Of a stretch of DNA of 39,095 nucleotides, positions 6,026-39,095 are shown one piece after another (the first letter of the stretch is position 1; each line of letters opens with the position of its first letter). Below the pieces are notes generated by a model that saw nothing but the letters and a program-made list of their open reading frames with translations, was not told where the DNA came from and ran no database searches. This DNA comes from a virus, in IMG/VR virus record IMGVR_UViG_3300023175_000102, positions 1-39,095 of that record; one strand, 5' to 3'. The position numbers and the translations under genes are program-made.

Positions 6026-6318
6026 TATTTACTGAAGCGTTCTGCAAATCCGCCAGAGTAGTCCTTGTTAGCTTCAATCTCACCGTTCTGCTTCAGGTCC
6101 TTAACCATCTGCTCTAGCCTTTGCCGTTCTACAATAAGTTCCTTACAATCAACCGCAGTCTGTTTAATGGATTGAAGCTCAGCCTTCCTAGCACTACCGC
6201 TAACTTCTGGGTCGACAGGCTTCTTAATCTCCTGAATCATGTTGTTGATTGCAACCTCCATAGACTCCATGAGCCTAATCGAGGCTTCAATGGTTGTGAA
6301 GTTAGCCTTCTTCGACAT
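6025..6318 (-). CDS. Small coiled-coil protein, candidate terminase small subunit
   Basis: A 97-residue, mostly helical protein with heptad-like spacing through residues 10-80 and no enzymatic motif. It stops on the start of the large terminase (TAATG, one shared base) and itself begins inside the end of the GroES-like gene (17 nt overlap). Position immediately upstream of the large subunit is the usual place for a small terminase subunit, but no helix-turn-helix is evident, and the coiled coil alone does not prove it. It could equally be a scaffold fragment or chaperone. Confidence 0.4.
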   Translation of the reverse strand: MSKKANFTTIEASIRLMESMEVAINNMIQEIKKPVDPEVSGSARKAELQSIKQTAVDCKELIVERQRLEQMVKDLKQNGEIEANKDYSGGFAERFSK

Positions 6319-6883
6319 AGAGCAGGTGGTCTTCAGTCATTCTATAAACAACGGAACCGTCATCAAGAATCATCTTGTAGTCGGCATCCGCTGAAAAGCC
6401 CACGATAGACCCCTTAACAACACCCTGCTCCTTGAGGTAGCTTGTAGGGGTAACGACCTTGGCTACGTCCCTGTCCTTCACGTTTATACCGAGCTGAGTT
6501 ATGATTCCAGAATCCGTAACCTTATCTGTCTTATCGACCTCCCACGGCTCTACAAAAAGCCAGTTACCAAGCATGACAATCTCGTTGTCTTCCTTTCTTC
6601 GGTACGCTATCGAGTTTGGCCTGAAGCTACCAAAGCTAGACACATAAAGGTCTTCGTCTAACTTGTAATACTCGGTGGTGGTTACGTGGTGATGAAAGAA
6701 TAGTGTGTCGCCAGGCTTGGCTCCAGTATCAAACCTTGATGGAGCGCAAACTATTTCGCCATAACATATTCTGTTCTCAAACTCATTCCACTTTGAGTCG
6801 AGGTATATCTCCTTATCGCCGAGGTTGAGCGTATCGTTAAAGGCTTTTTCTACCCTTACGATAAAGTCGTTTAGAGACTTCAT
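6302..6883 (-). CDS. GroES-like co-chaperonin with two GroES-type domains
   Basis: A 193-residue protein whose C-terminal half (about 105-191) follows the Cpn10 pattern: an NWLFVEPWE strand, a flexible loop containing SGIIT at 125-129 in the place of the GroES mobile loop, a VVKGSIVGFS turn where GroES has VKVGD, and an ending DGSVVYRMTEDHLLYVEE that mirrors the GroES C-terminal strand set. The N-terminal half (about 22-85) has a weaker copy (YGEIVCAP, KPGDTLFFHHHV). GroES caps the host GroEL chamber; T4 gp31 is the classic phage version, needed for capsid protein folding. Location just upstream of terminase and portal agrees with a role in virion protein folding. The two-domain layout is about twice the usual size. 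Confidence 0.75.
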   Translation of the reverse strand: MKSLNDFIVRVEKAFNDTLNLGDKEIYLDSKWNEFENRICYGEIVCAPSRFDTGAKPGDTLFFHHHVTTTEYYKLDEDLYVSSFGSFRPNSIAYRRKEDNEIVMLGNWLFVEPWEVDKTDKVTDSGIITQLGINVKDRDVAKVVTPTSYLKEQGVVKGSIVGFSADADYKMILDDGSVVYRMTEDHLLYVEEG

Positions 6884-13490: not shown

Positions 13491-13612
13491 TGACTAGCAT
13501 GGACATCTTCGCCCACATCTTGGGCATGTACGCAGGTTGGAGTTTGGTGCTCTCCTGCATACGAATCGGACTCAACATGACGTTAGACTACCTAGAAACT
13601 CAAACACAATGA
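13490..13612 (+). CDS. Tiny membrane protein upstream of ArdC, 40 aa
   Basis: Forty residues, MTSMDIFAHILGMYAGWSLV then a second hydrophobic stretch to about residue 31, consistent with a single membrane helix. It starts on the preceding gene's stop (TGATG) and its own stop overlaps the ArdC start (ATGA). The two overlaps argue that it is a real gene despite its size. Function unknown; it may anchor or accompany the ArdC protein. Confidence 0.6.
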   Translation: MTSMDIFAHILGMYAGWSLVLSCIRIGLNMTLDYLETQTQ

Positions 13613-14499
13613 AGCAAGACGTATATGACAAGGTGACCGAGCGCGTGCTCGATGGATTGAAGGCCAAAGGCATGGCATGGTTCCGACCATGGGAAGGTAG
13701 CGGTGGGCTGTCGCCTATCAACCGAGTGACGGGCCGTCCGTACAAGGGCATGAACGTGTTCTTCCTCTTCGCAGAGATGGAGGAGAAAGGATACGAGCAC
13801 AACGAATGGCTGACCTACAAGCAGGCAGAGAAGCTTGGTGGTCAGGTGCGCAAGGGAGAGAAGTCTGCCTTGGTCATCTTTTGGAACATCTTCTTCAAGG
13901 GAGAGGACGGCAAGCTGTACAAGAAGGAGTCTGAGATTCCTGTGGGCATGCCCTACGAGAAGCTGTTCTCCCTGCGCTCCTACAACGTGTTCAACATTGC
14001 CCAATGCGACGACATCGAGCCATTGCGGAAGTCTGTCGAGGCAGGGAACGATGGAACGCCTATCGAGCGAGCCGAGGCCATCTACGAGCAGTTCAACGGA
14101 CGTCCAACCCTGAAGCAGGGAGGAGACCGCGCCTACTACATGCCTGCGAAGCACCATGTGCAGATGCCGAAGATGGAGTCCTTCGTGTCACCTGACGACT
14201 ACTACAAGGTGCTCTTCCACGAGTTGACGCACAGCACAGGCCACGAGACGCTGTTGAACCGCAAGACCTTGGTGGACATGAACTCGTTCGGTGACGAGGA
14301 CTACAGCAAGGAGGAGTTGGTGGCAGAGGTTGGTGCGCAGTTCCTGACAGGTATCGTGGGCATCCAACCCAAGTCTGACCACACGAACTCACAGGCCTAC
14401 ATCAATGGATGGATTAGCAAGATTGGCAACGACAAGAAGTTCCTCGTGAGCGCATGCACACAGGCCATGAAAGCTGTCGACTGCATCCTCGGAGATTAA
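13609..14499 (+). CDS. ardC: ArdC-type antirestriction protein (ssDNA-binding domain + zincin)
   Basis: A 296-residue protein with the two-part ArdC layout. The N-terminal domain (about 1-130) has the typical start VYDKVTERVLDGLKAKGMAW, the WFRPWEG and PYKGMNVFFL motifs and a KGEKSALVIFW strand of ArdC ssDNA-binding domains. The C-terminal domain is a zincin metallopeptidase with HELTHSTGH (H204, E205, H208) and a downstream glutamate in EELVAEVGAQF (about E236/E240). ArdC proteins protect incoming DNA from host restriction and occur on plasmids and phages as 'polyvalent' modules. The ATG at 13609 is used because it overlaps the previous stop; an upstream in-frame start at 13537 would overlap that gene by 76 nt. 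Confidence 0.9.
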   Translation: MKQDVYDKVTERVLDGLKAKGMAWFRPWEGSGGLSPINRVTGRPYKGMNVFFLFAEMEEKGYEHNEWLTYKQAEKLGGQVRKGEKSALVIFWNIFFKGEDGKLYKKESEIPVGMPYEKLFSLRSYNVFNIAQCDDIEPLRKSVEAGNDGTPIERAEAIYEQFNGRPTLKQGGDRAYYMPAKHHVQMPKMESFVSPDDYYKVLFHELTHSTGHETLLNRKTLVDMNSFGDEDYSKEELVAEVGAQFLTGIVGIQPKSDHTNSQAYINGWISKIGNDKKFLVSACTQAMKAVDCILGD

Positions 14500-21098: not shown

Positions 21099-21172
21099 GC
21101 CCTCGTAGCTCAACAGGATAGAGCATTTGCCTTCTAAGCAAACGGTTACAGGTTCGAGTCCTGTCGGGGGTA
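21099..21172 (+). tRNA. tRNA-Arg (anticodon TCT)
   Basis: Complete cloverleaf: acceptor GCCCTCG with CGGGGGT (two G-U pairs), D arm with GTAGCTCAACAGGATAGAGC, anticodon stem TTTGC/GCAAA with loop CTTCTAA (anticodon TCT), T arm ACAGG-TTCGAGT-CCTGT, discriminator A. CCA is not encoded. It reads AGA codons, often useful when phage and host codon use differ. Confidence 0.93.
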
Positions 21173-21374
21173 CATCCCATTTATTCTAGCCCTTGTGCGC
21201 AATAGAACTCTACCTTGTCGGGTGAGGTGGGATATCCAGTCAGCCAGCCATCTGTTCGAATGAATGGTATTGGATTAGATGATGTTTGGAATGATTAAGT
21301 CGGGGTACAAGGTTGATGACTCATTGCCCGTTATGGATATCAAAGACTGACAGCTTGGAAAGACAGGCCAATTA
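21173..21374 (+). other. Gene-free stretch in the tRNA region
   Basis: About 200 nt with no convincing ORF. ATCCCA (21174-21179) can pair with TGGGAT (21228-21233). A TTCGAAT motif at 21254-21260 looks like a T-loop but its flanks do not form a T stem. GGATATC occurs at 21230-21236 and again near 21335. It may be leader or remnants of further tRNA genes. Confidence 0.4.
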
Positions 21375-25209: not shown

Positions 25210-25697
25210 TTTCACGCAGAAGAAGAGACTACTCAAGTACAACAGGCAGGGTTTCTGAGGTGAGATTTAAGCGGGCTGCGGAGGCACTGGGTTTTGACGT
25301 AGCAAAATCATCGAAGGGCTCAGACATCCACCATCACATAGACTTTCACATGACCATGGGCAACAAGACATGGTCTGTTGATGTCAAGGGAAACAATCTT
25401 CCAGATGAGATATGGTGCGAGTTCAAGAATGTTCATGGAAGAGACGGGTGGATGCGTGGTAGAGCAAGCATCATAGCATTTGAAATGCCAGAGGAAGGGG
25501 GGTTCTGCGTGGTCAATAGAGACAAGCTTCTTGAATGGTGTAACGAAAACATATCTGATGTGCTCGTTGACAGTAAGGACATGGCCTACAAGAAGAAGTA
25601 TACAAGGGCCAATAGGAAAGACGTGGTGACTAAGATTTATCTTGATGACCTGAGGTCAATAGAATCTTTCAGGGTCTGGAAATACAGAACTGCGTAG
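25206..25697 (+). CDS. PD-(D/E)XK-like nuclease, 163 aa
   Basis: GTG start in the stop of the previous gene. SEVRFKRAAEAL (possible first Glu) and DFHMTMGNKTWSVDVKG (about 45-61) give the Asp ... DxK pattern of the fold, and the C-terminal half is basic. The nearest analogues are small phage nucleases of the resolvase/VSR type. It is the last gene before the terminator at 25726. Confidence 0.6.
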   Translation: MISRRRRDYSSTTGRVSEVRFKRAAEALGFDVAKSSKGSDIHHHIDFHMTMGNKTWSVDVKGNNLPDEIWCEFKNVHGRDGWMRGRASIIAFEMPEEGGFCVVNRDKLLEWCNENISDVLVDSKDMAYKKKYTRANRKDVVTKIYLDDLRSIESFRVWKYRTA

Positions 25698-25725: not shown

Positions 25726-25761
25726 GAGGGGCGACTACATAAGATGCCCCTCTTTTCTTTT
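25726..25761 (+). terminator. Rho-independent terminator of the early operon
   Basis: Perfect 7-bp stem GAGGGGC (25726-25732) with GCCCCTC (25746-25752), 13-nt loop, then TTTTCTTTT. It lies 29 nt after the last early stop and separates early genes from the secreted-protein pair. Confidence 0.85.
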
Positions 25762-25790
25762 CGTAACTTGCAATGTTAAACAACTGACTA

Positions 25791-27698
25791 ATGAGATACT
25801 TCTTGCTTGCAGTAACACTGCTTATTATCAACAACGTAACGGCTCAAGAATGCTCTCTTCTTACCGACGGAGTAAGAACAATGGGCCTTGTTGAGCGTGA
25901 CTATCCCAGCCTTGCTGATGTAGACACAGTGACCATCCCTATTGTGTTTCACATCGTCCACACTGGGGCTGGAGAAGAGAACAACATCTCTGACGCACAG
26001 GTATACTCTCAGCTTGATGTCCTCAACGAAGAGTTTGCCGACAGCAAGATTCAATTCTGTATGGCTGCGCGAGACCCATGGGACAATCCAACCGATGGCA
26101 TTACTCGCTTCGACGGGAGTATCTGGGAGGACTACTTGTATGAGGGAATCTCCAATGGCAACGACCCTGACGCTATGGACCAAGAGGACCTAAAGGAGGC
26201 TGTAGGTTGCTGGAACCCTAGCGAGTACATCAACTACTACGTGGTGTCGGAAATCAACGGCAACAACGGGGGTAATGGCATCCAAGGCTTCGCCTACCTC
26301 GGGCCTACGGGAGACTGCCGTGATGGAGTGGTAGTGCTATACAATGCCACAGGAAATGTTGGGGTACAGAAGCCAGGAAGGGAGCTTGGGCTTACGGGGG
26401 TTCACGAGGTTGGTCACCACCTATCCTTGTGGCACACCTTCTCAAACAGCGACGACTGCGAGGAGACGAACTGCGAGACGCAGGGCGACCAGGTCTGCGA
26501 CACCCCTCCCACCCTGTCAAACACATCCTGTAGTTTGCCTACGTGCCCTGATGCTCTGGTAGAGAACTTCATGGATTATACACAGGAGACGTGCAGAAAC
26601 AGCTTTACTGTGGGGCAGTCAGAGCGTATGCACGAGTGCCTTCAGACTGTACGCACTGGACTTGTAGACAATATGAACTGCATCCCACCTATGCAGTACG
26701 ACGCAGCACCTACGCTTGCAACATACCAACAGCAGTGGTGTACTCCGAACCAAGACATCTGGATTCAGGTCAAGAACTTTGGTAGCGAGATGATTGACAT
26801 GGTGGATGTGCAGCTGTACTGCAACGGCATTCAGTATGATGCCCCAGTATTTGACCTAGTTCCTGGTGTTGGTCAGGATGTGTTATTCCCTGATGTGTAT
26901 GTCGATGGCGCTCAGATGTTTGAGGTTCAGGTGGTCGGTGCTCAGAACGATTATCTTGAGAACGACTACGCCTCTTGGCCCATCGAGACCACACCTGGGG
27001 CTCTAATGAGCATCACAGTGTCAACAGACAACTGGGCCAATGAGACCGACTGGGTCATCTACGACAGTTCGGGAGAAGTCTTAATTGGTGATGGCAACTA
27101 CCCCCTTGGCGTAGCCACCTACGAGTATGAAATCTGTATCTACGAAGATTGCTACGATGTAGTCATCGAAGACTCCAATGGCGACGGGTTCTGCGCCTTT
27201 GACTTCGGCAACGACGGGGTCTGCGACTTTGGCGGTGAGGGTATGACGGCCACCGTAGGCAGCGACACGGTTTTTACGACGGGGTTTGGGGCGAGCTTCG
27301 ACGTATGGGAGACATCGTTCTGCAACACCCTCCCCGAATGCCCATTGGACTTCGATGGAAGCGGAACCATAGGCAATGGCGACGTTCTCATTATGCTGTC
27401 TAACTATGGGTGTCAAGGTGTTTGTGACTACGACGTCAACAACGATGGAAGTGTGAATGTCTTTGACCTTCTGGAAATGCTCGCATCGCAGGGTGCGTGC
27501 CCAGTCGAGCAGGACTTCAGTATCGGCACATACAAGGACTTGGTTGTCGGGAACAGCGACGGGTTCTCATGGCCATCAGGACCACCACGTATCTACGACA
27601 TCCTTGGCAGGGAGATTGATAAGCCTTTTGACCAGCTTGCTACTGGCGTATACATCTTGCGTTGGAAGCGCGTAACCAGAAAAGTATTTGTACAATGA
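25791..27698 (+). CDS. Secreted M43-type metalloprotease with T9SS type A sorting domain
   Basis: A 635-residue secreted protein. Residues 1-19 form a signal peptide ending AQE. Residues 40-295 are a pappalysin/M43-like zincin: HEVGHHLSLWH (H205, E206, H209, H215), CDTPP (236-240) and the Met-turn FMDYT (M261). The usual Gly of HExxHxxGxxH is Ser212 here. Residues 300-500 look like CARDB/beta-sandwich modules, 520-570 hold two dockerin-like EF-hand loops (DFDGSGTIGNGD, DVNNDGSVNVFD), and the last 50 residues (RIYDILGREI ... GVYILRWK) form a type A T9SS sorting domain. T9SS cargo is exported across the outer membrane and often anchored to the cell surface, so the product should act on the host's outside. 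The cargo gene is coupled (ATGA) to a second one. Confidence 0.85.
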   Translation: MRYFLLAVTLLIINNVTAQECSLLTDGVRTMGLVERDYPSLADVDTVTIPIVFHIVHTGAGEENNISDAQVYSQLDVLNEEFADSKIQFCMAARDPWDNPTDGITRFDGSIWEDYLYEGISNGNDPDAMDQEDLKEAVGCWNPSEYINYYVVSEINGNNGGNGIQGFAYLGPTGDCRDGVVVLYNATGNVGVQKPGRELGLTGVHEVGHHLSLWHTFSNSDDCEETNCETQGDQVCDTPPTLSNTSCSLPTCPDALVENFMDYTQETCRNSFTVGQSERMHECLQTVRTGLVDNMNCIPPMQYDAAPTLATYQQQWCTPNQDIWIQVKNFGSEMIDMVDVQLYCNGIQYDAPVFDLVPGVGQDVLFPDVYVDGAQMFEVQVVGAQNDYLENDYASWPIETTPGALMSITVSTDNWANETDWVIYDSSGEVLIGDGNYPLGVATYEYEICIYEDCYDVVIEDSNGDGFCAFDFGNDGVCDFGGEGMTATVGSDTVFTTGFGASFDVWETSFCNTLPECPLDFDGSGTIGNGDVLIMLSNYGCQGVCDYDVNNDGSVNVFDLLEMLASQGACPVEQDFSIGTYKDLVVGNSDGFSWPSGPPRIYDILGREIDKPFDQLATGVYILRWKRVTRKVFVQ

Positions 27699-28708
27699 GA
27701 AGGTTGATTTGGTTTTTGCTCCCACTAATTTCTTGGGGGCAGGGCATATGTGACATGGAGATTATTGGATTCAATCCTATCTCCACTGACATGACGATTG
27801 CTGTCAATGGGGGCTACTGTACTCCTGCGGCTGGCGACTCTATCGGAGAGTTCCTCCTTGGACTGGCTTTTAATCCTGCACTAGAGGACGACAGTGAGTT
27901 TCCTTGCATCTATGAGAACGGCTGGGCGCTGCTTATCTTCCCTCTCGACTTTCCTGGGTTTGACATTGGGCAGGGTAGCGACGACATCCTTCAAACGGGG
28001 GATACGATTTCATTCGCACTCGATGAAGTCCCTGCCTTTGGTAGCGGTACGGCTGCATGCTGGATAGACATCATGCAGAGTGGGGCGTACTACGAGGAGT
28101 GCTTGGTCATTTCTGTTTGGCAAATCAATGACTCCGATGCTCTGGATGGAGACGCTGGGCTAGGAGGTTTCCCATATCCAGACGCTGATGTAATGAACTC
28201 GTGGATTATGTGGAGCCTGAACGGAGCGTGCTCTCCACCTCCACCACCCATCGTGTACGGGTGTACTGACATGTTCGCATACAACTACAACTTCGCTGCG
28301 TCTCAAGACGACGGGTCGTGTATCTATCAAGGGTGCCAAGACCCGCTGGCTCTTAACTACTGCGAAGACTGTGAGGTTGAAGGGGAGTGCATCTATGACT
28401 CACCCGCTGGTGAGGACTGTGGAGACCCACTCGTGTTCATCCCAAACACCTTCAGCCCCAACAACGACGGCCTGAATGATTACTGGAAACCAGTGACTAG
28501 ACCTGAGTGCTGGCTCACATGGGAGCTTCGCATCTACAACAGATGGGGTACTCTCGTCTGGGCGAGCTTCGACCCTAACGATAAGTGGATAGGCAATCGT
28601 CTCGACGCTTTTGTTCCAGACGGAGTGTATACGTGGGCACTCAAGGCCAAGACATTTGAGTCCACCAAGGTGATTGATACAGCAGGAAACGTAACGGTGT
28701 TCCGTTAA
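27695..28708 (+). CDS. Secreted cargo protein with T9SS type B (CHU_C) sorting domain
   Basis: A 337-residue secreted protein starting MRRLIWFLLPLISWGQG (signal peptide). Middle residues include a GCTDMFAYNYNFAASQDDGSC segment, a Cys-rich motif recurrent in Bacteroidetes surface proteins. The C-terminal 85 residues (FIPNTFSPNNDGLNDYW ... RIYNRWG ... GVYTW) are the gliding-motility type B T9SS domain. No catalytic motif is visible, so adhesion or partner function is likely. It starts on the protease stop (ATGA) and its own stop overlaps that of the convergent gene at 28705 (shared TTAA). Confidence 0.85.
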   Translation: MRRLIWFLLPLISWGQGICDMEIIGFNPISTDMTIAVNGGYCTPAAGDSIGEFLLGLAFNPALEDDSEFPCIYENGWALLIFPLDFPGFDIGQGSDDILQTGDTISFALDEVPAFGSGTAACWIDIMQSGAYYEECLVISVWQINDSDALDGDAGLGGFPYPDADVMNSWIMWSLNGACSPPPPPIVYGCTDMFAYNYNFAASQDDGSCIYQGCQDPLALNYCEDCEVEGECIYDSPAGEDCGDPLVFIPNTFSPNNDGLNDYWKPVTRPECWLTWELRIYNRWGTLVWASFDPNDKWIGNRLDAFVPDGVYTWALKAKTFESTKVIDTAGNVTVFR

Positions 28709-29004
28709 CCCCGAAGTCTATCGTTCTCTTTCTCTAGGAACTCCAGCCGAACCTTGTATTCTGCAAGGGTCTGGAGAACTTCTGTGAGTTCCCGTTGCAC
28801 TTTTGCTTTTTCCTCGTATGACTCCTCAAGCTTCTGCTCAAGGACGGCGACGCGCTCTCTTAAATCATCGCGGAAGAGCGTCTGCTCTCCCTTATCTTCT
28901 TTTCGCTCCTGATGCTTGAGCTTCATGCGCGACTGATAGAACTGCCACGCACCAGCGGAACCTAGCACAGTTACGATTGTGATAATAGTCTGGGCGTCAA
29001 TCAC
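28705..29004 (-). CDS. Anchored coiled-coil protein, spanin-like candidate
   Basis: A 99-residue protein with an N-terminal membrane helix (residues 5-25, TIITIVTVLGSAGAWQFYQ) and a long coiled coil through residues 35-95 (heptads of Leu/Val in RVAVLEQKLEESYEEKAKVQ). This layout is typical of inner-membrane spanins or holin-associated proteins in lysis cassettes. It lies last in a set of membrane-protein genes. No lipoprotein partner is visible here, so spanin is only a candidate call. Confidence 0.55.
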   Translation of the reverse strand: MIDAQTIITIVTVLGSAGAWQFYQSRMKLKHQERKEDKGEQTLFRDDLRERVAVLEQKLEESYEEKAKVQRELTEVLQTLAEYKVRLEFLEKENDRLRG

Positions 29005-29441: not shown

Positions 29442-29570
29442 TTAGCTTCCGCATGCTTCGCAGTCCTCTGGATTCTCAATGTTGCATGTCACCTCACCAG
29501 ACTCAATCTTCTGCTCTTGTTTTTTGAGCTTGTCTTGGTCAAGAAAGCTGATGTCAAAATCTTCCTCCAT
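29442..29570 (-). CDS. Small Cys-containing protein, 42 aa
   Basis: A 42-residue acidic/charged peptide (MEEDFDISFLDQDKLKKQEQ ...) ending VTCNIENPEDCEACGS with three cysteines (C-x8-C-x2-C). It stops 57 nt before the membrane gene and its ATG overlaps the stop of the holin-like gene (TAATG). The ending EDCEACGS looks like a short metal-binding or lipid-attachment tail, though it lacks a signal peptide. Small lysis-region protein of unknown role. Confidence 0.55.
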   Translation of the reverse strand: MEEDFDISFLDQDKLKKQEQKIESGEVTCNIENPEDCEACGS

Positions 29571-30007
29571 TATTTCTTTGATTTCTCAATGGTTCTGCCA
29601 GCGAAATAAGCACCGAACGCCGTTAACATAAGTATCTCCAGCAAAGATACGTAACTCTCTTTGACGTTAAAGGGCAGGTAATCAAGTGAGTCAAGCACCA
29701 TGGTCACCATAAACATGCACATCAAACATATCAAAGTCACTGGTCTTATGTACTTTGCGAGCTTGATGTCACTACCCATGTCCGCCTTCCACCTTTCGGT
29801 TACGTTGTTCTGAAACTGTATCTCGGCATCGACGCGAGCCTGAACCTCAGCAGGGTCCATACCCTCCATGCCGCTCAATAGATTCTTTACAATCCCCAGT
29901 CCACCGCTGTCTGGAAGCAGGTCACCTACGGTGTCTAGAACATCTGGAGCTTTCTCCTTAATCCAGAGACCGAGCTTTGTGTCTCTTATCTTCCTTGATT
30001 CAGCCAT
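29570..30007 (-). CDS. Holin-like protein (GTA holin 3TM type)
   Basis: A 145-residue protein with an N-terminal soluble part (1-85, amphipathic helices) and two clear membrane segments (about 88-107 and 119-138), with KYIRPVTL before the first, as in the GTA_holin_3TM family. Holins open the inner membrane at the end of infection. It overlaps the DUF5675 gene by eight bases and stands in the lysis cassette. Confidence 0.7.
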   Translation of the reverse strand: MAESRKIRDTKLGLWIKEKAPDVLDTVGDLLPDSGGLGIVKNLLSGMEGMDPAEVQARVDAEIQFQNNVTERWKADMGSDIKLAKYIRPVTLICLMCMFMVTMVLDSLDYLPFNVKESYVSLLEILMLTAFGAYFAGRTIEKSKK

Positions 30008-30467
30008 CGTAATCTATGTATGTTATGGTTACTTCTTGGTTAGATTCAATAGCACGCGCAATCCTTGGATAAATTTCGAAGTACGCTTGCGTGCTGCGTC
30101 CAATAAACCCGTCGCCCTTTTTGATATTACTTTCCTGAGTTTCGCCAACGAGAAGGCAACCAGCAGTGTGCTCATCAGTATTGCCACAATGAATAAGTAC
30201 GTACTCAAAATTAGGTACGTCACGAACCCAGAGCATGCCTTTGTGAATATCCTGAAAACGATGGGCATATCTGCTGTGAAAGCCGCCAACTGTTCGTAGC
30301 GTAACTCGATACGTTCCAGCGGGGATACGAGTTTCTCCATCAACTTTGTCAATTCTTTTTTCATCTTCTAATGTGTAACACAGGAACTCCCTGCCGTTGG
30401 TTATATCAAACAAAACTCCAGAGGTTGAGTCCCCCTGGCTGCTGATTCTTAATACTTCTAATTTCAT
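30000..30467 (-). CDS. DUF5675-like cell-wall-associated protein (possible L,D-transpeptidase fold)
   Basis: A 155-residue protein with RIPAGTYRVTLR and a conserved block VLIHCGNTDEHTAGCLLVG (about 90-108). The HxGNxxxxTxGCxLVG pattern places a His and a Cys like those of YkuD/L,D-transpeptidases, and DUF5675 proteins occur in phage lysis and structural regions. There is no signal peptide. A peptidoglycan role is likely but not shown. A second frame of the same strand (30029-30364) encodes a separate membrane-protein-like product. Confidence 0.75.
   Translation of the reverse strand: MKLEVLRISSQGDSTSGVLFDITNGREFLCYTLEDEKRIDKVDGETRIPAGTYRVTLRTVGGFHSRYAHRFQDIHKGMLWVRDVPNFEYVLIHCGNTDEHTAGCLLVGETQESNIKKGDGFIGRSTQAYFEIYPRIARAIESNQEVTITYIDYDG
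30029..30364 (-). CDS. Candidate nested membrane protein inside the DUF5675 gene
   Basis: Same strand, different frame: 111 residues starting MKKELTKLMEKLVSPLERIE, a charged coiled N-terminus, a strong membrane helix at about 48-72 (VTYLILSTYLFIVAILMSTL) and a basic tail (KRATGLLDAARKRTSKF). Nested holin or Rz1-type genes are well known in phage lysis modules. The frame could also be a chance product of the host codon pattern, so support is moderate. Confidence 0.35.
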   Translation of the reverse strand: MKKELTKLMEKLVSPLERIELRYEQLAAFTADMPIVFRIFTKACSGFVTYLILSTYLFIVAILMSTLLVAFSLAKLRKVISKRATGLLDAARKRTSKFIQGLRVLLNLTKK

Positions 30468-33400
30468 TCTGTTAGATTGTAGAACATGCTCTCTTCAAGG
30501 GTTCCGCTACGCATGCCCGCCATGTAGAAGTCAGCAAGATTCTTGAACTCAGCAAACTCAGTTGCGTCCATAGAGTCCTTTCTTCTGTTGACCATGGCAA
30601 AGTAATCCTTTGCGTCGCCTGCGTTCTTAAAGATAACGCGGATGTCTCGGATGTGTTGTGCATACCCGTCCATGTCTCGCATAGACAGCTCAATAGCTGC
30701 AGCCTTAGCTCCTTTCTGGAACTTCGAAGCCGCCTTCTCAGCGTCGTATGGTGAGTAGTCCAGCTTCTCGATAAGGATTCTTTGGAACCTTTCAATACCA
30801 CTGCCATCTTCAAGGGTAGCAAGGAAGTCTGCGTCATCCTTGAACACAGACTTAGCAATCATCTCGTATGCAGCTAGCTCCTCTTCGGAACCAAGTGACC
30901 TTTCGCGTGGGAGGTCATCGAGTCTTCTTGCGACGATGTCAATCTCCTTGGAGGAGAACCCAGCCATCTGGCCCATAGCCATCAAGAACTTCATAGCAAA
31001 GAACATGTCCATCTGGTCCTTGTCTTCTGGTCTGACAAAGTATTCTTTGCCTGTAGAAGAGTACACCTTGTTGCCGTCTTCCATGAGGTTTCTCAATGTG
31101 TTGCCAGCGTCGGTGACGAACTCTCCGTATGGGCCCATTGCCACCTTAAGTAATCCGCTTGCAGAGAGTTCAGGGTTACTGCTGTATGTTGGGATGGTGG
31201 CAGATGTGTTCTTCCATCTTTCGTATCTGTCATCATAGCCTTCGCCCTCAAGGAATGAAGGGATGCCGTCCATACCCTCTGAGATTGGGAACAACAAATA
31301 CTTGTTGGTCATCTCTTTTACCACATCCTCAAGGTATCCCAACGGTGGCAGTGGATTCATGTCAGTAAGAACTCCTCCCCCAATGTCGAGCCACGGACTC
31401 TTTCTGTACTCAGATTCCTCCTCCTCCTCATCAACAAACATGGATGCGATTGCTGGGATAAGAATCTTTCCGACAGCGTGGAACGTGGCAAGCTCAGCCA
31501 TGTGGCCAGCCATAGCAACAGTCCCCTCCTTTACCGCTGTACCTGTACGAATCTTCTCAAAGTCTGAGTACACGCTTCGCTTCTTGTTGACTGCAAATCG
31601 AGAGAAGGCAAGGATGATGTTACGCACCAAGGCCACCACCGCGCTCATAGTCCCAGAGGTGTCTTTGTATATATCTGCCGCTTGACGTGGTGTTGATGCC
31701 GCCTGGTCTTTGGTAACCATAGAGTCTGCGTAACTAAGCGCGTCGAGATTGGGCCGTGCGGCCTGTTCCTCCCAGTTGATTTCATCGAAGCTGTCGGCCA
31801 GGCCCTCCGAGATAAGGTAGTCACCGTAAAACGTGAACCACGATGCAATCGCAGCAATCTTGTCTGTTGACTTCAGGTTTTGAAGAGCGAGGTCATTGAG
31901 CTTGTCCCTTGTTCTAACGAACCAGCTTGTCTCAGTATCAATGGCTCCCGTGTACGGGTCAATGTTGCCCGCCTGATAGTCACGAGAGAACACTGGTGAG
32001 TTCTGAAGAAGCTTGTATCTACCGTTGGCCTCAAGAGCAATCTTAGAATCCTTAAACAAACCGTTGCGAACAGCAAAGGCAAACAGCTCACCCACCGTCT
32101 TAATCATATATGGAATAGACTGCGTAGGAACCTTTGAGTTAAACATGGTACTGATAAGCACGGTGCTTTGCTTCAGTGTCTGAGTGAGCACGCCGCCAAA
32201 AGCCTTGACAATCACAGCGTTACGAATGGTCTTGACGGGGTTCCTAAACTTCTTGCCGCCAATCATGAACCTGGACTGGAATACAAATGGTGCTCGTCCA
32301 GCATCCTGAGTGATGTACTGCATCAGCTTGCTGTGAAGCTGTTGTCTTACTCCGTCGTCAGAAATAAGCTCAGACATCTCGTCGCTTGAGAATACAGACT
32401 GCAATGCCATCACCTCGCCCACAGTATTCGACAGGATGGTGTTCTCTCTAAGTGTGCGCTCGTTAATCTTAATGAAGTCAAGACCAATGATGTTGCCAGA
32501 GCCCGTGATACTCTTTGGGTTTCTCTCGTATGATGAGCCCGCAACCTTCTTGGCGTTAGACAAGGAGCTGCTTCGCATGCTGTCCATGATAGCTTGCCTC
32601 ATTTGCAACCCCTCATCAACAGCTTCGTTCTTCACCCTCACCTTAACGCTGAATGGCGTGTAGTTATTCTCCCTCGTAAGGTTCTTGCCGAGGTATCGCT
32701 CAACGTAATTAGCAAACGAATCTTCAAGAGTGGAGTGTACCCCAGTCATGAAGTCAACCATTTGAACAAGGTCGGCGCGTTCTGTCTGGACCTTGGCGAT
32801 TAGGTCAGGCAGGTTCTTCTCTGCGAACAGATACTCAAACGCTGCCTCCATCTGAGCTATATCCTCATCTGAATACAGCTCACGCTGGTCTCTGTAGTGG
32901 TCAATGCTGCGACGCATTGCGTCTCTCAAGGCGAGGTACCACTCTGCTTCATTCTGACCAGGCGCCCCCTCTTCAAGGACTGGCATCTGTCTGGCCATAG
33001 AGAACAGCTGCATGATGGCATTGTCTGCCACAGTCTTGACACTGCCGCCCTCCTTTTCAATCCTATCAATCTCCTCGCTGATTGCCTCCACCGTCATGGC
33101 GTGAATCATGTCCGCCTTGGCAAACGCTCGCTCCATATCAGCAAAACCAATGAGCCTTCTAATCTTAGCAATGGTCTTGTTGTCTGTCTTAAACACAAGC
33201 CTAATGAAGGAGTCTGCTGTATCAAGCAGAGACAGGATGGGTCTCGCCCCAGCCTTGATTCCCTTGCTGGTCAGCTCACCCTTGATTGCGTCAGCCATCT
33301 CAATACGTCCCCTTACTCTAGCTGCTAGATACCCAAGCCCCATGACAGAGTCGTTCATCAGGTAGTCATCAAGCTTAAACTCCAGGTTGGCGAGGTGAAT

Positions 33401-36400
33401 CTTGTCCAGCTTGCTGAGTCTAGCAACCAGCTCGCTAACGTTGAACTTAGCAGCATCGTACAACCCAAGAATCTCAGCGATGTGTCTATCCTCAAGTAGC
33501 TTGTCGAGGTTGAATGCAATCTGAGGAAGAAGTACATCTGTAATGATAGCCTCCTTTGATTGCTCCTCAAGCAGTGCCTTGTTCTCGGCCAGCTGTTGCA
33601 GCACATACTCTACGTCAGCTGGGTTGGCTGGGTCAAGGCCGAGGTTTGGATTGTCCTCTATGAACTTAAGGATGGCCTTACGTGTACCGCTAACCTTACG
33701 AAGTCCTTCTGCCTTGAGCAATGCTGAGTACTCCTCCTCAAAGGTGGTGCCGTTCTTCTCTGCCAAGGCCTTCGCCTTAGCCACCATGACTGCATTGCGA
33801 CCGAGTTCCTCCATGGCCTTGAACTTGTCAGCCAGTGCGCTCAATGTCTCTACCGAACGACGTGCAGGCGCCTCAGCTACAATGCGTTGCTCCTCAGTAC
33901 TGAAGGATGTCTTGACCTTAGACACTGTCTGAACTGCTGCGTTCAGCGTATTGATAAAGTCTTTAACATCTGTTGGCGAAAGCAAGGCAGGGTTTATATC
34001 CGCAAGCCTAGACAGTACCTTGGCGTAGGATGCAACAGACTTGAGCGCCTCACCCTTCTTGCGCTTCTTTGTTATGTTGTTGAGCCTCTTCTGTAGCTTT
34101 CTTGCCGCACTAATAGACGCGAGGTAATCACGCATAGCTGCCTTTGCATCCTGCTTATCAAAGATGTCGATAAGCTTCTCGATGAACGTGTCCATTACCT
34201 CAGCCTCTCCCTCCTTAGCGATACGCTTGGCAGAAGACTTGTGTGCCTGACGTACAATCTTCAGCAACCTCTGGATATCAGCGTTGCCGAATGGCTGCTG
34301 ACCCTTCCCCTTCATGCGCTCATCTACAAGCTTGATTGCAAATGATAAGAACTCCTCTACAGTCTTTGCTTTGTTCTTGAGCTGGTCGAGTTCTTTCCTG
34401 AGTGCCTTGGCTTCTGTACTTAGCTCTCTATTTCTCTTACCGAGTGTGCTCTGAGCCTCCTTGGTTGCGAGCTTCCTGCCCGCAGTCCTTCCCTCCTTGT
34501 ACGCCTTGGCATTGGCATACAAAGCCTGCGCGTTTTCTTTGCTCATGCCACTGGCAACGAGCAGGTCCACGACCTCCTTCTTTCTCTTGTTCCATAGCTC
34601 GGTTTTTGAGGGCGCAATAATAAGCTTTCCTCGCTTAGTGACCCGAGCACTTGGAGTAGGAATTGAAGGGTCTACCATATCCGCTATGAGCTTCATCAAG
34701 TTACCCTGTGACTTTGCTCTTACACCGATAGGTTTGCTCTCATCCATGTTAAGGATGTCGCGTGTGATAGTATCAATAGGTACTGGTGACTTGACAGTCA
34801 TCCTTCCCCATGTGGCCTGACCCATACCACCCATCATCTCAAATGCGGCAGGAGTTATGAGCTTACGCTCTCCCTTGCTGTTGATGTACATATCACCTAT
34901 CTCTAGGCCACGGTTTGCTGGATTGACACCCCTGGTAACAAGCGTACCCGCAGCAGAGCGCATAGTCTTAAAGACAATAGTCCTTGGGCGTGGGGCGTTA
35001 GGGTCTGTGTTGACAAGCTTAAGTGGATATGATGCTGTTGGGTTGGGGTCTTTCTCAAGCTTGACTTCAGACGTCACCTCGATAGCTCCGTAGATTTCAT
35101 TAACCTGCCCCCCCTGCAAAATCTTTTCTTGGAAGAAATCGAAAAAGAAATTCTTGAGTGTAGAGCCGAACTGATTAGCGTTGGGTCTAAATCCAAACAC
35201 CCTCTCATACGAATCAATAATCCGCTTCTTTTCTTGAGCACTTTCCTTTGACTTAACAGCCACTGCATTGCCAATATTCGTTGCGAACTTATCTACAAAC
35301 TCACGTCTTTGTTCAAACGTAGACTTGTATGGAGAGGCAAACTCTACAAAGAAGCGTTCAAACAAAGCCTCGATAGTCCCGCCCATAGAGCTAAGCTTTG
35401 TTGTCCCATTCTTAATTGGATTCGGTTCTTTGCCTTTCTTTACTCTAGCTTCGTTGGCGGCTATCTGTTTCTGAACAGACAGCTGCTCAGTCTCGGCAAT
35501 AGTCTGCTTAAGAACGTTCTTGAGTTCTGTCTTAGTTATGATGCCCTGGTTAACAAGCTCAAATCCAATAGACGCCATAGACATGACCCCGTTAGTGGAG
35601 CTTCTGTGCTTCTGACGGCTGCCGCTGATGAGCAGGAGGTAGGCTTTTCCGTCAGGTGACTTTTTGAGCAGTTCATTAAGTTCGTTGGCCATGTTGTTGC
35701 CAGCGCTCTCGCCAGCCACGGCCCATACATCACCTGAGTTGGCAGAATAAAACAGCCCGCCTCCATTATTCACCAGTACCCTACCGTCAACAGACACCGA
35801 GCCAACCATCATGTTGTCTGGTGAGTGTGACAGTACATCTCTCCCCTCCAGAATGGACATGTCTTCTTGACGGACGATGCCTGACTTAAGCCAGTCCTCC
35901 ATCTGCGTGGTGCTTGCTGCGTATTTCAGGTCAAAGATTCCAATCTTCTGTGACTTGACCAAAGACACGGGGTCGGTAACATCAGAGCCTGGGCGCTGGA
36001 ACTTGATGGCCTTGCCCCCCACCTTGCTTTTCGCTTCAAAGCGTGGGTCAGATTCTGAAATCTTAACCGCATCCTTAGCAAGAACAAGTGCTCCAACCTG
36101 AATAATTTCAGAGGCTTCTGCCAACGGGCGTCCATCCCTCTTGTCGTAGAACCAGCTGTGTCTAAACGGGTTCATCCCCACCTGAACCCAGCCCTCCATC
36201 TTACCAATCTCCTTGTAGTCAGAGTTGTAATCAGGACCATTCATGATGTCAACCGCACGCTGCCTTGTGGCTTCTGGATTTTCATTTCTCCAGTCTCCAA
36301 ACATCCTGGCTATTGTGGTCTTGGCTGTACCGCGTGCGATGTTCAACGCCGCTGTTGGAGTAGAGTCAAATGTGGCGTTTGTAATAACAGCGGTCTGACC

Positions 36401-39095
36401 ATAACCAATGGACTTGCCACCAAGGAACGGAGACCTAGCTTCCGCCTTCTTGCCCTGGTGTACAGACACCACCCATGTGTCATAATTGTCGTAAGCTGGG
36501 ATGTCTAAACGAAGGCCAACGTAGTATCCATCCTCAACCTCTTTGTTTACGCCAATGATTCCCTTGTCAACCTTGTTTGCGTCAAGAGCAGAGGCAATGT
36601 CGAGTACCGTTGGGATTTCTGGCACTACCTCGAACGCCTTAATCGGCATGTTCTCCCTGACAGCACGCAAGTAATCCTCTTGTGTGATTTCCCCAAGCTC
36701 ATACTTATTGAGCACACCCAAAATAACGTTGTTTCTTACCTGCCTCTGAGACTCTGGAAGTTTAATCTCAGTACGTCTCTGTTCCCTCTGCGACGGTGTG
36801 ATACCCGATGCCTCCTCAATAGACACCTCGGCATTCTCTTGGAGTTCTGGGTTTGGTAGTGCCTGAGCCTTGGGCTTCTCACCCTTGGCCATAGTCTCTG
36901 CGGAAGAATACGCCTCCATGTAGTCGTCGTACATCTTACCGTCACCCACCTTACCCTCGCCCTCAACGAAGAACACTACGTCAGGCTGCTCCATTAAAGG
37001 AGAACCCTCCTCGTTCCACCCCTCTGGGGCAAACTCAGGGTTGAACTTAACTCTAGCCACAGGCTTCCACCCGTTCTCTACGTACTGTCTCTCCAGGTCT
37101 GTTGCATAGGCGTCGAAGAAACCGCTCTTCATGCCCCAATTCTTAGCAAGGCTGTTCCTCTTGTCTTGAAGAGGCTTAGACACCCTGCTCAACGAGGACT
37201 CTGGGCTCTTCCACAACCCACCCATATAGCCATCTCTCTTGACGTAGGCACCAGCCTTGTTGTCTGACGTGGAAAATATGGCTCCTCCATCATCGGCAAT
37301 CTTCTTTACGTCTTCTGCTGTGAGAGGCGTAACCTGAATACCTAAGTTAACCCCAGACTCCTTCATGAGCTGAAGGGCCTTGGCCATATTCTTAGCAAAG
37401 GCTTCATAGTCCCAAGCCTGAACCGAGTACACGTCCTGCTCGGTGGCCTGAACCTTGGTCCTGGGCCTTGGTTGCTGCGACTGCACTGCGTCCTTTCGCT
37501 TGTAATCCACACCTCTATACGTACCCTCTTTGATATAGATTTCGTCGCTCTCCCAACCTTTGTTTTTCTCCATCCACTTGATGAAGTTTTCAAGGTGCTG
37601 CTCATTGTTGAACACACGGGTAACTGGATATCTTCCACTCACCCTAGTCTTACCAACTTTGAATATGATTGTGGCCTCAATCTTAGAATCACCAGCATCC
37701 ATTGCCTGTGATTTAGACTCATCAAATCCTTCATCTGAATCCTCATCAGCAGCGATACCAATCTTTGTAGCCATGCCAGCATACCCCGCTCGGATGACTG
37801 CTTCGTTCAGTTTTCTCTGTCCCTCAAGCCTGCGGCCCTCGGAGAACTCTTGAGTCATCTGTTGGATAGCAGATACGACGTTGTCAATCTTCGCGTCAGG
37901 AATACCTCTGACCCCAATGCGCCCCAAGTGCGGAGCAAGGAACTCCATGAACTGCCTAATTACACTCTTCTGAATGTCGATAGATATATTGCCTGCTGTG
38001 ATATCAGCAAGAAGTTCTGTAAGGAACTCGTCGGCAACCTGGACCTTCTGTTGTTCTGTTAGAGATTTGTCATCAAGTGAAGACGTGAGGTTGCCTCTGC
38101 CATCCCCGTAGCTTGTTAAGAACTGTGAATACCTTTTAGATAGATTGTCTGGCAGGGCTTGAAACAACTTCTTTGCCAACCCAACAGCAGCCTTAGTTCC
38201 AATAGTCTGCAACACGAAGTCGTGGTACCCCTCGTGGTAGGCCGTGTTCTCCAATAGTGATGGGAGGAAAAGCTTAATCTGACCCGAGCCTGTCCACATA
38301 CCGCGACCTGCTGCATTTACAGCTTCCTCTCTAGTCATGCCACCCTCCTCCATCAGGTCGGCGATGTACGTATCGTAATCTCTGTACATGTCAATAGCGA
38401 CATCCCCCAAGGAGGCCAGACCCCTCACCACATTCATAGCGTTTTGCATCCCCTTGACAATGCGTTCACCAGTAGTAATAGACTTTGTCTTGCCCTCACC
38501 ATCTAGGGTTGTGTGGGGGAGTACGTCAAGAGAAGTGAGCCTTGAGATTAACTTCGATACCGAGTCTAAATTGCCCGCTGTTACAGTAACCTTTCCTCTG
38601 CCCTCCTGGAACAACCCTCCATAGTTACGTCTCTTATTCCCAGCCTTTCTTCCCTCCTTAGCCAGGATACGAGACTCAAGCTTGCCATCGGTCTGGAGCA
38701 TAGAATCCATCTCCCCCTCAATAGTGCCTCTTTCTTGCAGAAGCTCCCTGACTTCTTTCGTAATCTTTCTTCTTCCGTTAGAGTCAGCCCTAGTATACTG
38801 CTCGGCAAGAATCTCCACCTTATTGTGAATGTCCACGAGTCTTTGAAAAGTCTCTGGATTTGTTTCCGCCAAGTATTCCATCAGCTGTTGGCGTCTATCG
38901 AACAGCTTGGTGTGCGCATCAATGGCATCAACAATCCTCCTGCCAATGCTTGCTCTTTCAGCCTTAGACTCAGCCTGAGTAAACTGCTTCTTGAGCTCGT
39001 TAATCTTCGCTGTGGTTCGGAGCATATCGAGCCCCTTGGTGGCCACCGTCCTAGTGACATTACCTACGCCCGCAAGTCCCCCACCCATACCCATA
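30464..39095 (-). CDS. Giant polyvalent-type protein with HEGYH zincin motif (5' end beyond right edge)
   Basis: More than 2,876 codons; the frame is open at the right edge, and the Met at 39094 may be internal. Domains seen: residues 280-420, a metallopeptidase-like region with HEGYH (H287, E288, H291) and a downstream EFLTELLAD glutamate; residues 555-715, a GNAT/ART-like region (GGAIFSTSD, GGLWKSPES, FFDAYATDLERQY, GWKPVARV, DVVFFVEG); about 1450-1950, long coiled-coil and Lys/Ala-rich helices; about 2350-2650, a C-terminal block with DKIAAIASWFTFYGDYLI and a short hydrophobic segment near IPAIASMFVD. Such giants are called polyvalent proteins and are thought to be carried in the virion and injected to block defences early. 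It heads the lysis cassette, whose first gene overlaps its stop by four bases. Confidence 0.75.
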   Translation of the reverse strand, partial: MGMGGGLAGVGNVTRTVATKGLDMLRTTAKINELKKQFTQAESKAERASIGRRIVDAIDAHTKLFDRRQQLMEYLAETNPETFQRLVDIHNKVEILAEQYTRADSNGRRKITKEVRELLQERGTIEGEMDSMLQTDGKLESRILAKEGRKAGNKRRNYGGLFQEGRGKVTVTAGNLDSVSKLISRLTSLDVLPHTTLDGEGKTKSITTGERIVKGMQNAMNVVRGLASLGDVAIDMYRDYDTYIADLMEEGGMTREEAVNAAGRGMWTGSGQIKLFLPSLLENTAYHEGYHDFVLQTIGTKAAVGLAKKLFQALPDNLSKRYSQFLTSYGDGRGNLTSSLDDKSLTEQQKVQVADEFLTELLADITAGNISIDIQKSVIRQFMEFLAPHLGRIGVRGIPDAKIDNVVSAIQQMTQEFSEGRRLEGQRKLNEAVIRAGYAGMATKIGIAADEDSDEGFDESKSQAMDAGDSKIEATIIFKVGKTRVSGRYPVTRVFNNEQHLENFIKWMEKNKGWESDEIYIKEGTYRGVDYKRKDAVQSQQPRPRTKVQATEQDVYSVQAWDYEAFAKNMAKALQLMKESGVNLGIQVTPLTAEDVKKIADDGGAIFSTSDNKAGAYVKRDGYMGGLWKSPESSLSRVSKPLQDKRNSLAKNWGMKSGFFDAYATDLERQYVENGWKPVARVKFNPEFAPEGWNEEGSPLMEQPDVVFFVEGEGKVGDGKMYDDYMEAYSSAETMAKGEKPKAQALPNPELQENAEVSIEEASGITPSQREQRRTEIKLPESQRQVRNNVILGVLNKYELGEITQEDYLRAVRENMPIKAFEVVPEIPTVLDIASALDANKVDKGIIGVNKEVEDGYYVGLRLDIPAYDNYDTWVVSVHQGKKAEARSPFLGGKSIGYGQTAVITNATFDSTPTAALNIARGTAKTTIARMFGDWRNENPEATRQRAVDIMNGPDYNSDYKEIGKMEGWVQVGMNPFRHSWFYDKRDGRPLAEASEIIQVGALVLAKDAVKISESDPRFEAKSKVGGKAIKFQRPGSDVTDPVSLVKSQKIGIFDLKYAASTTQMEDWLKSGIVRQEDMSILEGRDVLSHSPDNMMVGSVSVDGRVLVNNGGGLFYSANSGDVWAVAGESAGNNMANELNELLKKSPDGKAYLLLISGSRQKHRSSTNGVMSMASIGFELVNQGIITKTELKNVLKQTIAETEQLSVQKQIAANEARVKKGKEPNPIKNGTTKLSSMGGTIEALFERFFVEFASPYKSTFEQRREFVDKFATNIGNAVAVKSKESAQEKKRIIDSYERVFGFRPNANQFGSTLKNFFFDFFQEKILQGGQVNEIYGAIEVTSEVKLEKDPNPTASYPLKLVNTDPNAPRPRTIVFKTMRSAAGTLVTRGVNPANRGLEIGDMYINSKGERKLITPAAFEMMGGMGQATWGRMTVKSPVPIDTITRDILNMDESKPIGVRAKSQGNLMKLIADMVDPSIPTPSARVTKRGKLIIAPSKTELWNKRKKEVVDLLVASGMSKENAQALYANAKAYKEGRTAGRKLATKEAQSTLGKRNRELSTEAKALRKELDQLKNKAKTVEEFLSFAIKLVDERMKGKGQQPFGNADIQRLLKIVRQAHKSSAKRIAKEGEAEVMDTFIEKLIDIFDKQDAKAAMRDYLASISAARKLQKRLNNITKKRKKGEALKSVASYAKVLSRLADINPALLSPTDVKDFINTLNAAVQTVSKVKTSFSTEEQRIVAEAPARRSVETLSALADKFKAMEELGRNAVMVAKAKALAEKNGTTFEEEYSALLKAEGLRKVSGTRKAILKFIEDNPNLGLDPANPADVEYVLQQLAENKALLEEQSKEAIITDVLLPQIAFNLDKLLEDRHIAEILGLYDAAKFNVSELVARLSKLDKIHLANLEFKLDDYLMNDSVMGLGYLAARVRGRIEMADAIKGELTSKGIKAGARPILSLLDTADSFIRLVFKTDNKTIAKIRRLIGFADMERAFAKADMIHAMTVEAISEEIDRIEKEGGSVKTVADNAIMQLFSMARQMPVLEEGAPGQNEAEWYLALRDAMRRSIDHYRDQRELYSDEDIAQMEAAFEYLFAEKNLPDLIAKVQTERADLVQMVDFMTGVHSTLEDSFANYVERYLGKNLTRENNYTPFSVKVRVKNEAVDEGLQMRQAIMDSMRSSSLSNAKKVAGSSYERNPKSITGSGNIIGLDFIKINERTLRENTILSNTVGEVMALQSVFSSDEMSELISDDGVRQQLHSKLMQYITQDAGRAPFVFQSRFMIGGKKFRNPVKTIRNAVIVKAFGGVLTQTLKQSTVLISTMFNSKVPTQSIPYMIKTVGELFAFAVRNGLFKDSKIALEANGRYKLLQNSPVFSRDYQAGNIDPYTGAIDTETSWFVRTRDKLNDLALQNLKSTDKIAAIASWFTFYGDYLISEGLADSFDEINWEEQAARPNLDALSYADSMVTKDQAASTPRQAADIYKDTSGTMSAVVALVRNIILAFSRFAVNKKRSVYSDFEKIRTGTAVKEGTVAMAGHMAELATFHAVGKILIPAIASMFVDEEEEESEYRKSPWLDIGGGVLTDMNPLPPLGYLEDVVKEMTNKYLLFPISEGMDGIPSFLEGEGYDDRYERWKNTSATIPTYSSNPELSASGLLKVAMGPYGEFVTDAGNTLRNLMEDGNKVYSSTGKEYFVRPEDKDQMDMFFAMKFLMAMGQMAGFSSKEIDIVARRLDDLPRERSLGSEEELAAYEMIAKSVFKDDADFLATLEDGSGIERFQRILIEKLDYSPYDAEKAASKFQKGAKAAAIELSMRDMDGYAQHIRDIRVIFKNAGDAKDYFAMVNRRKDSMDATEFAEFKNLADFYMAGMRSGTLEESMFYNLTE

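Follow-up and report, generated by a model that had tools for sequence, protein, structure and literature searches.

Cargo proteins of the type IX secretion system (T9SS) have already been described in a phage: the passages of the Cryophage report that treat them propose hijacking of the host T9SS, perhaps for superinfection exclusion (Bellas et al. 2020, PMC7468147). In Flavobacterium johnsoniae, according to the relevant passages of two other reports, type B cargo needs PorP/SprF-type shuttles, which are thought to hold the cargo at the surface (PMC9143113, PMC12618676). The shuttles are stoichiometric, apparently limiting and not recycled, and they also serve gliding adhesins; a shuttle gene beside a type B cargo gene is common, not universal, in the account given there (PMC12618676). 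Lyases and peptidases of flavophages have been proposed, in the part of the report that discusses them, to aid entry or the escape of progeny from debris and matrix (PMC8776804). Here we describe a pair of genes, designated A and B, in the virus record IMGVR_UViG_3300023175_000102, whose complete span of 39,095 nucleotides (nt) is the stretch of DNA under study (the window). Gene A (positions 25791 to 27698, plus strand) encodes a secreted-type M43 (ulilysin-like) metalloprotease of 635 amino acids (aa), and gene B (27695 to 28708, plus strand) encodes a T9SS type B cargo protein of 337 aa, as identified by profile matches. An earlier note on this stretch knew of no described phage system of this kind; T9SS cargo as such is on record from the Cryophage passages (PMC7468147), whereas no report of the protease/type B pair, or of its link to lysis, was found in searches of an open-access library.

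The coupled genes A and B and their products

The window belongs to a phage. Profile matches identified the marks of a tailed phage, i.e., TerL, portal, primase-helicase, an Erf-like annealing protein, and exonuclease families, and also a holin; these genes, together with the recurrence of A and B in IMG/VR, bear out the earlier assignment of the two genes to the phage. A related TerL occurs in 122 annotated phage records; where the name gives a host genus, it is Flavobacterium in 68, Cellulophaga in 15, Tenacibaculum in 2, Azobacteroides in 2, and Maribacter in 1.

In the window, the start codon of B overlaps the stop codon of A (ATGA). Scans of IMG/VR yielded 35 loci with A as the query, 65 with the alignment of A, and 71 with the N-terminal domain of B (below, L labels denote stretches fetched for matching A, B, or cellular M43 proteins, and G labels denote phage records selected by TerL). 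With loci merged per contig, 102 contigs besides the window matched A or B: 52 carried both, 30 carried A only, and 20 carried B only. Near-identical contigs of different samples were collapsed only at 90% B identity, which gave 26 A-B clusters and 10 B-only clusters, and L001, 25 loci repeating a contig, L037, and L038 were left out of the counts. An ATGA or GTGA overlap joins the genes in 50 of the 53 A-B contigs, the window included, and in 25 of the 26 clusters; the exceptions are a broken A frame (L025) and a short gap (L123/L124). The adjacency and translational coupling that had been proposed are thus confirmed, along with the coordinates, and the suggested check for the same pair in related phages turned out positive. 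One record, L002, is identical to the window across A and B. Among hand-chosen pairs with finite dS, the ratio of nonsynonymous to synonymous substitution rates (dN/dS) was about 0.02 to 0.10, though a few of these pairs had a dS close to saturated; with dN much smaller than dS, A-B is under purifying selection. The earlier note had named misassembly with a piece of host chromosome as a possible refutation; misassembly and chance are both excluded, because the same A-B junction recurs in other contigs.

Of the 30 A-only contigs, 14 hold other, low-scoring M43 proteins (142 bits or less). The 16 that score higher (203 bits or more) comprise 14 cut by the contig end inside A and 2 that are complete, one with a type B gene directly upstream of the M43 gene (L057) and one with a second M43 gene (L058). 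Two distant phages with very different proteins, L059 and L060, the latter among the low-scoring A matches, also have an M43 gene followed by a type B gene.

Protein A (ATG at 25791, stop codon at 27696 to 27698) matches PF05572 (Peptidase_M43) with 64.5 bits (cut-off, 23), and its family profile retrieved ulilysin (E value, 6e-38), mirolysin (about 1e-34), and, more weakly, pappalysins in a profile search of the PDB. Ulilysin and mirolysin are secreted proteases. The catalytic domain, delimited by Pfam and family-profile matches (residues 45 to 300; positions 25923 to 26690), contains the conserved zinc motif HEVGHHLSLWH (26403 to 26435). Among the 51 A proteins longer than 500 aa, the strict form HE[VMLI]GHxLxLxHTF is present in 45, the remaining 6 retaining HExGH and the third histidine, and the Met-turn N[FY]MDY is present in 50; the zinc ligands are intact in all 51. 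The model of the catalytic domain aligned with ulilysin at a Z score of 12.0 over 140 residues, though the model is poor there (predicted local distance difference test [pLDDT] values mostly below 50 for residues 154 to 300), and the AlphaFold model of A is reliable for residues about 301 to 510 only. By its profile match and zinc site, A is a protease of the M43 pappalysin family, as had been read from the sequence, and it is predicted to be proteolytic.

The catalytic domain is followed by a predicted CARDB-like beta-sandwich (residues 301 to 403; 26691 to 26999), whose model gave VIA-align Z scores of 12.4 to 2l0d and 12.3 to 3idu; the structure-search matches of A other than CARDB and M43 were common beta-sandwiches and were left uninterpreted. 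A calcium-type stretch, GDGFC/GNDGVCD, lies between this sandwich and a dockerin-like pair of EF-hand loops. The dockerin-like calcium-binding repeats (27339 to 27506) are below threshold in A and its close relatives, and Dockerin_1 is above the cut-off in the distant relative L057. Against annotated phage records, A gave one match, at 31%.

Of the signal peptides that the earlier note had placed on both proteins, what stands is leader-like N-termini, judged by eye, at positions 25791 to 25844 in A (probable cleavage before Gln-19) and 27695 to 27739 in B (probable cleavage before Gln-16). A glutamine following a small or hydrophobic residue is found at positions 12 to 34 in all 51 A proteins (raw count, with no chance rate), and a glutamine occurs within the same positions in 69 of 70 B proteins.

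The open reading frame (ORF) caller began B at a TTG (27662), whereas the start conserved in relatives is the ATG at 27695, which gives the 337-aa protein. The C-terminal end (28439 to 28705) scores above the cut-off with both TIGR04131 (36.7 bits; cut-off, 35) and PF13585 (CHU_C; 55.5 bits; cut-off, 27), so the type B sorting domain claimed for B holds. PF13585 is above the cut-off in all 16 A-bearing records, and TIGR04131 in the B proteins of relatives is above it in L009 (38.6) and below it in L024 (33.7). By its sorting domain, B is a T9SS type B cargo protein, and its export is predicted. Between the N-terminal domain and the sorting domain lie cysteine repeats of the GCTD...DDGSC type (28256 to 28398), which were recognized by alignment and are absent in L020, L023, L024, and L027.

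The N-terminal domain of B (27743 to 28195) was found on viral contigs only. Two strict peptide patterns for it had 82 matches in genome_contigs, none of which was confirmed, and the domain was found in 0 of 395 Bacteroidota genomes in each of two partly overlapping samples (at most nine first-look candidates scored per genome among those shown); as a positive control, the search recovered it in 8 of 24 records from viruses and phages. As far as the searched cellular genomes go, this domain is virus restricted. No meaningful match to B came from a profile search of the PDB, and the nine matches of B to annotated phage records were all to the repeats or the tail.

The end of A, RIYDILGREI...GVYILRWK...KVFVQ (27513 to 27695), may be a divergent sorting tail of T9SS type A; it resembles the end of a type A domain without the usual front half. 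The earlier note had claimed a type A sorting domain here, and this did not hold at curated thresholds: A was not listed at an E value of 1 or less in the TIGR04183 search, and PF18962, also a type A family, had no match in the window or in the L002 record. In a profile-profile comparison (hhalign), the A tail matched type A with a probability of 0.93 versus up to 13.5 in 20 column shuffles; this test has little power on short, shallow alignments, since type B against type A failed too. Our own type A profile gave no score in the distant M43 proteins of L057 to L060. Sub-threshold PF18962 matches (E values, 0.003 to 0.015) fall at the end of A in 5 of the 10 records with a tailed A (positions converted by hand), and the same search gave sub-threshold matches in 4 of 14 control genomes as well.

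Terminator, promoter, and lysis genes at the locus

The gene block preceding A is closed by an intrinsic terminator (25726 to 25761, plus strand) with a 7-base-pair stem, a 13-nt loop, and a T-rich tail. The preceding gene stops at 25697, and the stem at 25726 to 25752 has a folding energy of -20 kcal/mol (z, -4.0). Of 36 loci screened for a perfect-stem hairpin with a T tail, 13 had one upstream of A. The weak promoter-like element TAACTTGC (25764 to 25771, plus strand) occupies the position where relatives have TAnnTTTG, which we take to be the Bacteroidota -7 motif. TAnnTTTG is found upstream of A in 18 of 35 relatives versus 1.0 expected from base shuffles; the window has a near form only, not the exact motif, and a sigma-70 scan for a promoter was empty.

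Downstream, and convergent with B on the minus strand, are genes for a spanin/hol-like small protein (28705 to 29004; phrog_2658, E value of 2e-7; phrog_89, E value of 5e-5) and a holin (29570 to 30007; phrog_3427, E value of 2e-20), with a 127-aa gene listed between them, and a DUF5675 gene adjoining the holin gene (30000 to 30467; PF18925, 91.4 bits). The pair is thus preceded by a terminator and followed by lysis genes, as had been described, with replication-side nuclease genes on the other side. Of the 73 B-bearing contigs, 52 have a gene for a holin, an M15 enzyme, or an amidase no more than 2.5 kb away, as do 27 of the 36 clusters (raw counts, with no background rate); the first figure becomes 53 with DUF5675 included.

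The arrangement varies among relatives. At the location that A-B has in the window, G016 has a type B cargo gene with a different body, and in L126, B alone lies close by. A-B is on the lysis strand, 3' of the holin gene, in L111, and precedes TerL in L113. In L016 and L086, A-B comes after large unidentified genes, and B overlaps a gene for a weakly holin-like 67-aa protein, which is followed by an Amidase_2 gene; L018 resembles this arrangement, L049 has M15 in place of Amidase_2, and in L012, of the same group, the second gene upstream of A encodes a tape measure. Where B occurs without A (a set of 18 contigs), an M15 gene ends 0.33 to 0.35 kb upstream of B in 17. A DUF5675 gene overlaps the end of B in L102, which that query had missed, and L101, of the B-only set, has tape-measure and portal genes and a TerL from a different family, phrog_9 instead of phrog_6681. 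The module accompanies lysis genes in several phage groups.

Elsewhere in the window, a 2,876-aa open frame (30464 to 39094, minus strand) reaches the window end; it had no match in the PHROG search and is possibly an internal virion protein. A tRNA-Arg (TCT) gene (21099 to 21173, plus strand) lies with recombination genes on one side and the primase-helicase on the other. There are also genes for a GroES-like co-chaperonin (6302 to 6883, minus strand; phrog_13932) and a protein of an anti-restriction family (13537 to 14499, plus strand; phrog_7245).

Other T9SS cargo genes and cellular relatives

T9SS sorting domains are not confined to A-B among related phages. From the 80 best of at least 600 TerL matches, the 15 contigs longer than 30 kb were taken as a sample, and 11 of them (G009, G011, G016, G019 to G022, G024 to G026, and G028) have a type A or type B domain above the cut-off, compared with 0 of 14 control genomes for PF13585 and 1 of 14 for TIGR04183. 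Since the 11 records carry such domains mostly in other genes, T9SS use may be a standing feature of infection in this lineage.

A second exported-looking pair, C-D, lies beside the holin gene in L024 (8724 to 12187, minus strand), L027, and L033, and C-D was also seen in L301, L303, L306, and L310; in L021 it comes after TerL- and portal-like genes. C is 686 to 810 aa long in the first three records, with TIGR04183 above the cut-off in L024, below it in L027, and above it in most other C records. D is 344 to 348 aa long in those three (344 to 365 aa overall), has a leader or an N-terminal hydrophobic segment, and has no family above the cut-off; by eye, its C-terminus could be an outer-membrane barrel. 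A 169-kb viral contig (L127, 8094 to 10840) carries tandem type B cargo genes for proteins of 619 and 296 aa with an ATGA overlap, and the 634- and 642-kb uncultured phage records LR745206.1 and LR756502.1 (H27, H28, and H36) have type B tail-like matches to B in three and two places.

The cellular relatives of A, as judged from the best 80 of 123, match mainly residues 30 to 300 and at most up to residue 394, the best at 37%. Many of the best matches come from Saprospiraceae and other Bacteroidota, and a few come from metagenome-assembled genomes labelled archaeal, proteobacterial, or Chloroploca. By our own profile, 31 of the 80 have a type A-like tail. A type B gene adjoins the M43 gene on the same strand in 4 of the 80 loci, all from Bacteroidota (L152, L192, L203, and L208), and occurs anywhere in the locus in 8 (raw counts, no background). 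These Bacteroidota M43 genes with type B neighbours suggest that the phage pair may have had a cellular forerunner. That a host supplied both genes together was considered and rejected, given the limited extent of the cellular A matches and given that the searches of cells, themselves of limited depth, did not find the N-terminal domain of B.

Proposed function and comparison with known systems

We tentatively favour, as a possible reading that may well prove wrong, that A-B provides a host-exported surface protease and a surface partner around the time of lysis and thereby frees progeny and prevents their re-binding. We infer secretion, surface anchoring, late timing, substrate, and benefit from the sequences. 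The products of A and B would exit the infected Bacteroidota cell through Sec and then the host T9SS; B would be taken up by a host outer-membrane protein of the PorP/SprF type and retained on the surface, and A would be exported via its own divergent tail or along with B, its targets being proteins of the surface or the matrix. With both made around lysis, adhesins and receptors would be stripped and the surface layer loosened, and progeny could leave with no re-binding to debris; a block of superinfection would be a side effect. Release of progeny without re-binding is favoured because the module accompanies lysis genes, company that points to egress more than to an early superinfection block. 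A search of 24 phage records, fragments among them, found no PorP/SprF (PF11751) match, while two Bacteroidota genomes used as a control gave 26 and 5 (26 and 4 above the cut-off), suggesting that any export of B would depend on a shuttle supplied by the host.

If this reading is right, Bacteroidota phages exploit the type IX machine of the host, around lysis, to add proteins to the cell surface or to remove them, and the carrier is a conserved two-gene module of several unrelated phage groups. B, if it works, would be a type B cargo protein running on borrowed shuttles, and named proteins are now available for asking how progeny get out of a cell whose surface is covered with T9SS proteins.

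Several observations weigh against egress as the role of the pair. In the window, A-B is on the strand of the replication genes, 3' of the terminator, where late timing is a presumption. The count of neighbouring lysis genes has no background rate for comparison, and the lysis reference proteins were drawn from these same loci, which favours nearness (51 of the 73 contigs remain when references from the contig itself are removed); 21 of the 73 contigs (9 of the 36 clusters) lack a holin, M15, or amidase gene inside the 2.5-kb range, though several of these contigs end nearby. Within the TerL sample, A-B is present in only 2 of the 15 records (G009 and G011), 9 having other T9SS genes and 4 having none above the cut-off. 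Of 72 contigs, 20 have B but not A, suggesting that the function of B may not need the protease. The putative type A tail of A does not reach the curated thresholds, and in one clade (L020 to L024, L027, L033, and L047 to L048) A ends right after the dockerin-like region, tail-less, with the ATGA into B kept. The fold of B is not predicted confidently (pLDDT, 48.7), owing to which its AlphaFold model was left out of the structure searches.

Superinfection exclusion as the primary role, in which A would cleave, or B displace, receptor adhesins during infection and shut out rival phages, is rather unlikely, yet the same anatomy of A-B fits it. The terminator before the pair and the TAnnTTTG of 18 of 35 relatives are compatible with expression apart from lysis, and type B cargo needs stoichiometric shuttles that also serve gliding adhesins, as stated in the passages on shuttles (PMC12618676). 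However, the recurrent proximity of lysis genes and, in siphovirus-like relatives, an outright overlap with genes for holin-like proteins and amidases suggest that the proteins are made late, when keeping rivals out would gain the phage little. The same position and overlaps would suit an aid to envelope lysis, with A, and perhaps B, acting like a spanin accessory in the periplasm or outer membrane and breaking the outer membrane or its peptidoglycan links; in the tail-less clade, A has a leader and would be periplasmic unless carried by B. We consider this improbable, as B has a clear signal for outer-membrane export and the window has separate spanin-like and holin genes.

Proteolysis for nutrients or of the matrix, by an auxiliary gene that would free peptides or open biofilm or particles and so benefit the infected cell or the spread of the phage, draws on the solved relatives of A, ulilysin and mirolysin, and on the best cellular matches, Bacteroidota M43 proteins of which 31 of 80 have a type A-like tail by our own profile; it leaves the virus-restricted B and the lysis neighbourhood unexplained and seems quite improbable. 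A place for A and B in the virion, as adhesins or tail decorations that merely resemble secreted proteins, is very improbable: A follows large unidentified genes in siphovirus-like relatives, a position of tail genes, and the cysteine repeats of B show weak similarity to proteins of Synechococcus phages, some of which carry a virion structural annotation, but nearly all members have leader-like N-termini, B has a T9SS sorting domain, and no recognized structural gene adjoins A-B in the window.

A further reading is speculative and improbable. B, a virus-restricted cargo for which no phage shuttle was found, would act as a thief of shuttles, occupying the scarce PorP/SprF-like shuttles of the host and halting the delivery of host type B adhesins, e.g., a gliding adhesin, while the M43 protease would clear those already exposed on the surface. 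The adhesive surface of the host would thus be erased in two steps, timed to lysis, by a scheme reused in unrelated phage groups.

Compared with the SprB/SprF and PG1035/PorP systems, the sorting domain of B is from the same curated family as the domains of those type B cargo proteins, as far as the relevant passages describe them (PMC9143113, PMC12618676); unlike in those systems, no shuttle match was found in the 24 phage records, and the N-terminal domain of B was not found in the searched cells. Cryophage is likewise an uncultured Bacteroidetes phage with T9SS sorting-domain genes in its genome. It differs in being a 76-kb phage with three variable type A cargoes (endoglucanase, GH39, and PA14), and in the passages describing them neither an M43 protease nor a type B partner is named, nor any coupled pair or connection with lysis (PMC7468147). 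BACON phage cluster 2 also has phage-borne T9SS sorting domains, there near head genes and in BACON proteins, with no protease pair named in the corresponding passage (PMC6949934). The metallopeptidase of the flavophage Molly is, like A, a zinc peptidase of a flavobacterial phage and has been discussed for entry and progeny escape; it is a protein of 199 aa with a lipoprotein domain, and the part of the report devoted to it mentions no T9SS tail or partner (PMC8776804).

Elemovirus (Flavobacterium phage elemo, with a genome of about 60 kb) has a TerL 41% identical to that of the window; it differs in that NC_055852 has no match to the N-terminal domain of B and the profiles for M43, type A, and type B find nothing in its first 50 kb. 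Ulilysin and mirolysin, among the M43 pappalysins, share with A the catalytic domain and the zinc site, whereas the phage protein adds CARDB-like and dockerin-like regions and is coupled to B.

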